The position numbers and the translations under genes were made by a program. From assembly GCA_028875655.1 (NCBI GenBank), contig JAPPCX010000120.1:1-59464 (forward strand): 59,464 nt of DNA. The letters run 5' to 3'. Position 1 is the first letter of the stretch, and each line of letters opens with the position of its first letter. Below, piece by piece: positions 24,758-26,891 of this stretch. The notes under the pieces are model-generated. The model was not told the origin of the DNA, ran no database searches, and saw only the letters and a list, made by a program, of their open reading frames with translations. The stretch is from Chloroflexota bacterium (GTDB taxonomy: Bacteria > Chloroflexota > Dehalococcoidia > Lucifugimonadales > UBA3495).

Positions 24758-25831
24758 CTAATCGGCGGCCACCGCCGCCTCCTTGCACACCCGGTCGTAT
24801 GCCCATTCCAGCAGGTCCACGGTTTCCTCCCAACCGATGCAGGAGTCGGTAATCGAAATGCCGTACTCAAGCGTCGAAGGATCGGGCCCGAGTTTCTGGG
24901 CGCCGGGATTGATGTGGCTTTCCAGCATGACGCCGATCAGGTTGTCATTGCCGGCCGCGCGCTGGTTCACCACGTTCTCGAAGGCGATGTGCTGGCGGGT
25001 GTGGTCCTTGTTGGAATTGCCGTGGCTGCAATCAACCACGACGTTGAGCGGCGCGTTGGCCTTGCGCAGCGCGTCCTCAGCGACGGCGATGGAGCGGGCG
25101 TCGAAGTTGGTGCCGCTGCGCCCGCCGCGCATCACCAGGTGGCAGTTCTGATTGCCGCGGGTTTCCACGATGGAGGCCTGCCCGTTGTGGTCAATGCCGA
25201 GGAACGCCTGCGGCGTGGCGGCGGCGACCAGGGCGTCAACGGCGGTCTGCGGGTCGCCGTCGGTGCCGTTCTTGAATCCGACGGGCATGGAGAGGCCGGA
25301 CGCCATCTGCCGGTGAATCTGGCTCTCGGTGGTGCGGGCGCCGATGGCCGCCCAGGTGACCAGGTCGGAAACGTACTGCGGGACGATGGGGTCCAGGAAC
25401 TCGGTGGCCGAGCAGAGTCCGGCCTCGGCAATCTCCATGAGCAACCGACGCGCGCGGTGCAACCCGTCCTCAATCTGGTAGGTGTCGTTGAGGTTAGGGT
25501 CGTAGATCAGGCCCTTCCAGCCCACGGTGGTGCGCGGCTTTTCAAAGTAAACCCGCATCACCAGCATCAGCCGGTCGCTGAGCCGGTCCGCCAGTGGCTT
25601 GAGTCGTTCGGCGTAGTCCAGCGCGGCCGTATGGTCATGGATCGAGCAAGGGCCCACGATCACGGCGAAGCGCTCATCCTCGCGGTTGAGAACCGCTTCA
25701 AGCTGCCGGCGCCCCTCCAGGACGGTCCGTTCCGCCTGGGAACTCAACGGAATCTGGGATTCAAGCTCCGATGGTCGAATCAACGCGTTGTTGCTCATTA
25801 CGTTTACGTCCTTGGCCGGTGAGATTGCCAT
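24758..25831 (-). CDS. aroG: 3-deoxy-7-phosphoheptulonate (DAHP) synthase, class I
   Basis: 357 aa. It condenses PEP and erythrose 4-phosphate to DAHP, the entry step of aromatic amino acid synthesis. The family features are clear: VIVGPCSIHD, MRVYFEKPRTTVGWKGL, LSMPVGFKNGTDG, VMRGGRSGTNFD and VDCSHGNSNKDH, with the metal ligands Cys, His, Glu and Asp spread over these motifs. It is of the AroF/G/H type. The start ATG 25831 has AGGAGG at 6 nt. It is preceded by a Tyr/Phe-rich leader peptide and an attenuator, so expression probably responds to Tyr or Phe supply. I cannot tell which amino acid inhibits the enzyme itself. Confidence 0.95.
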   Translation of the reverse strand: MAISPAKDVNVMSNNALIRPSELESQIPLSSQAERTVLEGRRQLEAVLNREDERFAVIVGPCSIHDHTAALDYAERLKPLADRLSDRLMLVMRVYFEKPRTTVGWKGLIYDPNLNDTYQIEDGLHRARRLLMEIAEAGLCSATEFLDPIVPQYVSDLVTWAAIGARTTESQIHRQMASGLSMPVGFKNGTDGDPQTAVDALVAAATPQAFLGIDHNGQASIVETRGNQNCHLVMRGGRSGTNFDARSIAVAEDALRKANAPLNVVVDCSHGNSNKDHTRQHIAFENVVNQRAAGNDNLIGVMLESHINPGAQKLGPDPSTLEYGISITDSCIGWEETVDLLEWAYDRVCKEAAVAAD

Positions 25832-25881
25832 TTTGTCCTCCTGAATTGATGACTTTGACCGCTCCGACTGTGCATTTAATC

Positions 25882-25916
25882 AAAAAGGACTTCAGCCTCG
25901 ATCCGGCTGAAGTCCT
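25882..25916 (-). terminator. Attenuator hairpin upstream of aroG
   Basis: On the minus strand AGGACTTCAGCC (25916-25905) pairs with GGCTGAAGTCCT (25897-25886): a perfect 12-bp stem with a 7-nt loop, followed by a run of Ts (25886-25882). This is a textbook intrinsic terminator placed about 50 nt before the aroG start and 22 nt after the leader stop codon. An alternative partner for its 5' arm exists upstream, TGAAGCCC (25951-25944), with 7 of 8 positions pairing. The terminator is therefore conditional. Confidence 0.88.
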
Positions 25917-25938
25917 CTCCTGGTTGTTTTCACGAAGG

Positions 25939-26043
25939 CTATCGGGCTTCACACGCCGGATTCACGCTGACCGGGCGGCGGTAAGCGTAAAAGTAAAACG
26001 GGCGGTAATACCCGACAGTGATGTGGCCGTTGGCGGAAACCAT
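25939..26043 (-). CDS. Tyr/Phe-rich attenuator leader peptide of aroG
   Basis: A 34-codon frame from ATG 26043 to TAG 25939-25941. Residues 12-21 read YYRPFYFYAY: five Tyr and two Phe codons in ten, a composition unlikely by chance in GC-rich DNA. The rest is ordinary (starts MVSANGHITVG). A TTGACA-17-TAAGAT promoter lies upstream, with the -10 box 7 nt from the ATG, so the leader is probably translated from a leaderless transcript. An antiterminator candidate overlaps the last codons and the terminator follows after 22 nt. The gene is the regulatory peptide for DAHP synthase: slow decoding of Tyr/Phe codons should allow read-through. Confidence 0.85.
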   Translation of the reverse strand: MVSANGHITVGYYRPFYFYAYRRPVSVNPACEAR

Positions 26044-26050
26044 GAAGGAA

Positions 26051-26079
26051 ATCTTACGCCGCGACCGGGCGATTGTCAA
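26051..26079 (-). promoter_or_regulatory. Promoter of the aroG leader
   Basis: Consensus -35 TTGACA (26079-26074), 17-nt spacer, -10 TAAGAT (26056-26051) on the minus strand. The -35 box overlaps the stop codon of trpA. The predicted start of transcription falls at or next to the leader ATG (26043). Confidence 0.7.
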
Positions 26080-26891
26080 CTACGCCCGGCCAGTTCTGCG
26101 ACCACTTTTGCGCCACGGTCGGCCGCTCCTTCGTGGGGGCCGTCGGAGATTGCGCGCACGAGGACGCTGCCTACGGCGGCTCCATCAGCTCGCCGTCCCA
26201 CATCCAGAACGTGTTCGCGGCTGGAGATGCCAAACCCGATAGCGATCGGCAAATCGCTGTGTTGACGAACTCGGCTCGCCAAGTCCAAGCCATCACTCGA
26301 TACCTGGGACCGGACACCGGTGACGCCGGTTACGCTGATGCAATACACGAAACCGCCGCCGATTTCCACTGCTTGGGCGATACTTTCGTCGGTGCTGGTG
26401 GGCGCCAGCAGCGGAATCAGGTGAATGCCGTATGGGGCCAGTTCTTCGACCAACGAGCCGGCCTCTCCGGCGGGCAGATCGTGAATAATCAGGCCATCTA
26501 CCGTGGCCTCCGCGCATGCCGACGCGAAGCGCCGCAAACCGTAGGAAATCAAACTGTTGTAGTAGCCTATCAGTATCAGCGGAGTTTCGCCGATCAGTGG
26601 TCGCAATGACCGGGCGGTGTCGAGACAGTCCTGCGGCGTGATTCCGTTCTGCAGAGCCGCAAAACTTGACTCCTGAATGACCGGCCCCTCGCCGATGGGG
26701 TCGCTGAACGGGATGCCCAACTCAATGGCATCGGCGCCGGCGGCAACCAGGTGTGGCACGATGTCCAAGGCAGCGTCGCGGTAGGGGTGACCGACGGTCA
26801 CGAACATCAACAACGCGGGGCGTCCCTCCGCTTTCGCCGCTGCGAATTTGGCAGCAATGCGGTCAGTGTTGGTAATCGATTCGGTAGCCAT
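26076..26891 (-). CDS. trpA: Tryptophan synthase alpha chain
   Basis: 271 aa TIM barrel. It releases indole from indole-3-glycerol phosphate for the beta chain. The motif AIELGIPFSDPIGEGPVIQ holds the catalytic Glu57 (Glu49 in E. coli), but the second catalytic acid, Asp60 in E. coli, is Glu68 here (codon GAG, checked). The phosphate-binding GFGISSREH and VGSVLVR segments are present. trpB is not adjacent, which is unusual. It is 36 nt downstream of cysC and probably co-transcribed with it. Confidence 0.92.
   Translation of the reverse strand: MATESITNTDRIAAKFAAAKAEGRPALLMFVTVGHPYRDAALDIVPHLVAAGADAIELGIPFSDPIGEGPVIQESSFAALQNGITPQDCLDTARSLRPLIGETPLILIGYYNSLISYGLRRFASACAEATVDGLIIHDLPAGEAGSLVEELAPYGIHLIPLLAPTSTDESIAQAVEIGGGFVYCISVTGVTGVRSQVSSDGLDLASRVRQHSDLPIAIGFGISSREHVLDVGRRADGAAVGSVLVRAISDGPHEGAADRGAKVVAELAGRS

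Follow-up and report, generated by a model that had tools for sequence, protein, structure and literature searches.

The cysteine attenuators of mycobacteria are leaderless attenuator ORFs. In Corynebacterium glutamicum, the ilvBNC leader is made with no ribosome binding site (Morbach et al. 2000, as cited in PMC4046766), and an aromatic leader, aroR, carrying Phe-Tyr-Phe, lies upstream of aroF and responds to phenylalanine but not tyrosine, in the accounts given of it (Neshat et al. 2014, per PMC11802643; PMC4046766). A survey from 2010 lists leader-peptide systems as known only from Proteobacteria and Actinobacteria, with Firmicutes added (PMC2965389). A preliminary description of the locus studied here proposed a Tyr/Phe attenuator of a DAHP synthase gene, named aroR-aroF as a precedent, and knew of no such system in this phylum. 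The precedent is real in C. glutamicum, although tyrosine supply is reportedly without effect there; in a literature search that covered few subscription papers, we likewise found no description of attenuation in Chloroflexi or Dehalococcoidia.

Within the window—the whole stretch of 59,464 nucleotides of Chloroflexota DNA that was analysed—the minus strand carries, in order, trpA, a promoter, a leader ORF of 34 codons, an intrinsic terminator, and the DAHP synthase gene (Table 1). PF00793 has one match in the genome, namely this DAHP synthase at 25831-24758, and no class II DAHP synthase was found in the genome; the proposed switch would thus stand at the one entry to the aromatic pathway that was detected. 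The promoter, the leader with YYRPFYFYAY at residues 12-21 (seven Tyr or Phe among ten residues), and the 12-bp hairpin with its T-run at 25916-25882 were all found as the preliminary description had given them. We conclude that the locus is very probably a ribosome-mediated transcription attenuator of the trpL/pheL type, in which expression of DAHP synthase would be set by charged tRNA-Tyr and tRNA-Phe.

Table 1. Features of the DAHP synthase locus, in order of transcription
Feature	Position	Strand	Basis or detail
trpA, upstream neighbour, outside the switch	26076..26891	-	TIGR00262
Sigma-70 type promoter of the leader	26051..26079	-	TTGACA (26079-26074), 17 nt, TAAGAT (26056-26051)
Leader ORF, 34 codons, MVSANGHITVGYYRPFYFYAYRRPVSVNPACEAR	25939..26043	-	motif GYYRPFYFYAYR; codons 11-22 evolve as coding sequence
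Region 1, CTGTCGGGT, overlaps first Tyr codon; can sequester region 2	26010..26018	-	predicted fold; partner 25947-25939
Region 2, antiterminator 5' strand ATCCGGC-gtg-TGAAG-c-CC, in the leader's last codons	25944..25961	-	predicted pairing
Intrinsic terminator, AGGACTTCAGCC (GGATCGA) GGCTGAAGTCCT then TTTT	25882..25916	-	12-bp hairpin (25916-25886) and T-run
Region 3, antiterminator 3' strand GG-a-CTTCAGCCGGAT, equal to terminator 5' arm and part of loop	25901..25915	-	predicted pairing, covariation
Shine-Dalgarno AGGAGG of the DAHP synthase gene itself	25842-25837	-	
Class I DAHP synthase (aroFGH type), 357 aa, regulated gene	24758..25831	-	NCBIfam TIGR00034, 470 bits, cut-off 173

The -35 box of the promoter overlaps the stop codon region of trpA. 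TTGACAA is invariant in all 12 members of the genus (12/12) and the TAnnAT form of the -10 box is kept, in a stretch that is otherwise variable. Seven nucleotides separate the end of the -10 box from the leader ATG, whose A is at 26043, and the corresponding distance is 6-10 nt in 41 of 50 leaders found among relatives, in a scan that permitted 3-40 nt. With a transcription start 6-8 nt past the -10 box, the ATG would coincide with the 5' end or follow it by a few bases, leaving no room for a Shine-Dalgarno sequence; judged by this spacing, the leader mRNA is probably leaderless or nearly so. A longer, TTG-started frame reaching 26079 was rejected, since its start would sit inside the promoter, in the -35 box.

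Selection on the leader ORF differs sharply along its length. Pairwise codon differences within the focal genus number 114 synonymous versus 38 nonsynonymous in the aromatic block (codons 11-22), as against 26 versus 273 in codons 2-10 and 64 versus 265 in codons 23-34. By this measure the aromatic block is under coding selection and the flanking codons are not, amino acids being kept in the block only, and the same codon pattern provides indirect evidence that the ORF is translated. Tyrosine is the commonest aromatic residue, making up 14.8% of the residues in the 50 leaders, with phenylalanine at 9.0% and tryptophan at 1.8%. Three leaders (L015, L003, and L004) carry Cys codons in place of Tyr codons, which suggests that single regulatory codons are gradually being lost or that their replacement is tolerated.

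We then consider the RNA structures into which the leader could fold. Among the 12 genus members, 99.3% of the cells compared for the terminator are paired; a simple terminator scan had missed the 12-bp hairpin and marked a weaker one within the leader instead. The attenuator region folds better than 200 of 200 dinucleotide shuffles (z = -3.91). For the antiterminator, the preliminary description had pointed to 25951-25944, and TGAAGCCC is indeed present there, but the extent of the helix had been understated: it comprises 14 pairs, in which ATCCGGC (25961-25955) pairs with GCCGGAT (25907-25901), and since the last bases of GCCGGAT are those of the loop, the terminator loop takes part as well. 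The protector helix between regions 1 and 2 is strong in the predicted fold of the focal sequence; within the genus, 68% of its cells pair, three pairs change on both sides, and its covariation score was reached by 2 of 500 shuffles, but it is not general across families.

The antiterminator hardly varies within the genus and so offers little covariation there. Across 28 representatives, covariation was tested using double-centred duplex energies, comparing pairing with a sequence's own terminator arm to pairing with the arms of others. In the leader ORF, the final 36 nt prefer their own terminator arm (z = -7.0; 0 of 5000 permutations), a preference that is absent from the first 36 nt of the ORF (-1.0), the spacer (+0.9), and the sequences upstream (+0.5) and downstream (-0.7), while the terminator's own 3' arm, serving as positive control, reaches z = -11.5. 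Repetition on draws of one sequence per genus gave agreeing values (z = -5.4 to -7.0). We take this covariation between leader end and terminator arm, drawn as it is from sequence comparison, to be the strongest evidence for an attenuator. The geometry is also suitable: in 47 of 50 homologues region 2 does not extend past the leader stop codon, and in 41 of 50 its start is 12 nt or more beyond the last Tyr/Phe codon of the cluster, such that a ribosome at the stop codon could cover it and a stalled ribosome spare it.

A search for orthologues in genomes at the levels of genus, family, order, and class yielded 110 upstream regions, mostly one or two per genus; these were chosen from search matches and are not a random sample, and MAGs from a single genus do not count as independent. 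Under a strict rule—a short ORF that has at least five Phe, Tyr, or Trp within 10 residues and stops shortly ahead of a terminator—an aromatic leader with terminator was found in 48 of the 110 real regions, compared with one each among 110 reverse complements and 330 shuffles, and a slightly looser rule kept 50 of the 110, spread over at least 12 families in the order. Leader and terminator are present in every genus member with the orthologue (12/12); loss of the Tyr/Phe codons or hairpin in close relatives, which the preliminary description would have counted against attenuation, was thus not observed. Diverged leaders in other families retain aromatic codons, terminator, and covarying antiterminator. 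The arrangement is absent from about half of the sampled order and from all eight regions (8/8) taken from other orders. One genome of the same genus (G008) has only a DAHP synthase of 51% identity, without an attenuator, on a contig (C36, locus L183) that may represent contamination or transfer.

The effect of a parked ribosome was modelled by folding the focal RNA up to the terminator loop and counting how much of the 12-nt terminator arm pairs with the leader end. In this modelled folding, 9.4-9.9 of the 12 nt pair when the A site is on codon 12, 13, or 17, and 7.9 when it is on codon 19, compared with 0.38 nt when no ribosome is present and 0.01 when one sits at the stop codon. Parking at Tyr12 to Tyr19 hence frees the antiterminator in the model, and parking at the stop or the lack of a ribosome does not; a stall on Tyr21 behaves as no ribosome, with region 2 not freed. 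In modelled folding of the full-length RNA the terminator always wins thermodynamically, so that the switch must be kinetic, set by which parts of the RNA are made first, as it is for trp. For five genus members (L006-L010), single-sequence folding gave no clear gain on stalling, and antiterminator pairing was no better than in synonymous-codon controls. A crude whole-ensemble folding measure, superseded by the own-versus-other pairing test, had shown a mild average effect (0.68-0.74 when stalled, 0.47 at the stop, and 0.59 in the synonymous control). Together, conservation, the covarying antiterminator, and the parking model support the originally proposed attenuator in substance.

On what is observed—the parts, their conservation, the RNA covariation, and the coding selection on the aromatic block—we base a mechanism whose stalling, termination decision, and amino acid response we infer. 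RNA polymerase would begin on the leader ATG or no more than a few bases from it, and ribosomes would load on this leaderless or near-leaderless mRNA. If Tyr- or Phe-tRNA is short, the ribosome would stall on codons 12-19 and cover region 1, leaving region 2 free to pair with region 3 (the terminator 5' arm and loop), and transcription would enter the DAHP synthase gene. If both tRNAs are plentiful, the ribosome would instead reach the stop codon and cover region 2, the terminator would form, and transcription would end. Without translation, region 1 would pair with region 2 and the terminator would likewise form, a step that is supported for the focal sequence and more weakly elsewhere.

Other readings of the same features can be weighed against this evidence. 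It is extremely improbable, in our judgement, that the hairpin is a mere terminator of the upstream trp genes accompanied by an aromatic ORF that arose by chance. The setting does invite such a reading, as trpA ends at 26076, just upstream, and precedes the DAHP synthase gene in 10 of 12 genus members; however, a conserved promoter separates trpA from the hairpin, and where no trpA occurs within 1500 nt upstream, as in L004, L010, and several members of other families, leader and terminator stay. Chance would also have to produce an aromatic block under coding selection and a leader end that covaries with the terminator arm, against a chance background of about 1% or less.

A different possibility is that the peptide itself matters, acting as a TnaC-like, sequence-specific arrest peptide that senses a free aromatic metabolite rather than tRNA charging. 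This would agree with the near fixation of GYYRPFYFYAYR in the focal genus, but between families the leader peptides diverge completely—compare GYYRPFYFYAYR with GYYYYFFTG, NYFTYYYYFKKK, and KFYTYYYFFE—and aromatic richness alone is kept, a pattern that favours sensing by a run of codons over a sequence-specific arrest peptide; codons 2-10 and 23-34, moreover, show no conservation at the peptide level. We therefore regard an arrest peptide as very improbable. Closer to the ribosome-mediated attenuator, and a refinement of it rather than an exclusive alternative, is a version that in practice answers to a single amino acid, such as Phe, or mainly to Tyr. The C. glutamicum Phe-Tyr-Phe leader, with its reported response to one of its two amino acids, offers a parallel, and Tyr codons outnumber Phe codons in the leaders described here; yet both codon types fall within the block where, in modelled folding, a stall frees region 2, and we consider a single-amino-acid response rather unlikely.

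Elsewhere in this genome, aromatic leaders were sought at trpE and at two prephenate dehydratase-domain loci, and none was found. Upstream of trpE, at L192:1134-1360 (G000 contig C75), there is a candidate T-box riboswitch in which AGGGTGG is followed by a terminator and UGG is a plausible specifier; its match to RF00230 scores 67.3 bits (E = 1.3e-14), short of the gathering score of 93. From these matches, the two genes seem to be controlled differently in the focal genome, trpE through a T-box and DAHP synthase through a leader peptide; if the trpE T-box holds, the aromatic branches would be shared out between two types of sensor for tRNA charging. In two other families, f26 (L169, L173, L179, L180, L151, and L168) and f19 (L153, L158, and L160), a recurring ORF of 37-53 codons lies upstream of DAHP synthase without a terminator, with aromatic residues gathered C-terminally (for example ...SYTGGLFTYGRSYRS and ...RRFFLFTRRGSASYSYR), and may be a further kind of leader control, acting through Rho or translation, or else an arrest peptide. 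In genus g225 of family f26 (L150, L156, and L161), two successive short ORFs occupy this position, also without a terminator, ending ...LFTSGRPYTYSG (or similar) and ...YPGR. A broader reading, which we put forward as a tentative possibility, is that a clade-wide class of Tyr-dominant attenuators, with leaderless mRNAs and the antiterminator in the leader's final codons, exists alongside terminator-less aromatic leaders in other families, the entry gene having been re-equipped with more than one leader-peptide mechanism.

Taken as a whole, the results constitute strong comparative evidence for leader-peptide attenuation in Chloroflexota. The mechanism is a known one and its occurrence is apparently new to this phylum, while the probably leaderless leader and the clade-wide distribution go somewhat beyond the routine. 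The predicted consequence is that uncultured lineages sense the charging of Tyr and Phe tRNA at the entry to aromatic synthesis, and transcription-translation coupling and leaderless initiation would be implied for the clade. Tyr-rich leader attenuators are, to our knowledge, rare, and a Tyr response thus becomes directly testable.

Several described systems resemble this locus in part. The T-box (RF00230) also senses tRNA charging and controls a terminator, but it binds tRNA directly and has no leader ORF, and RF00230 has no match in the region upstream of the DAHP synthase gene (25820-26090). Rfam leader families, including Phe_leader and Trp_leader, gave no match at the gathering score, and none even at E up to 10. 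The trpL, pheL, and pheST leaders of Escherichia coli share the codons of the controlled amino acid and the mutually exclusive antiterminator and terminator, but serve other genes and amino acids; here, unlike in those leaders, region 2 is contained in the ORF, and the leader mRNA probably has neither a Shine-Dalgarno sequence nor a 5' UTR. The leaderless attenuator ORFs of Actinobacteria likewise produce a leader peptide from an mRNA starting at or near the start codon, although for other amino acids and in another phylum, and with the leaderless start here read from promoter spacing. In aroR-aroF of C. glutamicum, as here, an aromatic leader peptide precedes a DAHP synthase gene under ribosome-mediated attenuation, a likeness that is functional only and set by description: that system belongs to the Actinobacteria and has a single Phe-Tyr-Phe, whereas the leader in this other phylum is Tyr-dominant, with seven Tyr/Phe in 10 residues.
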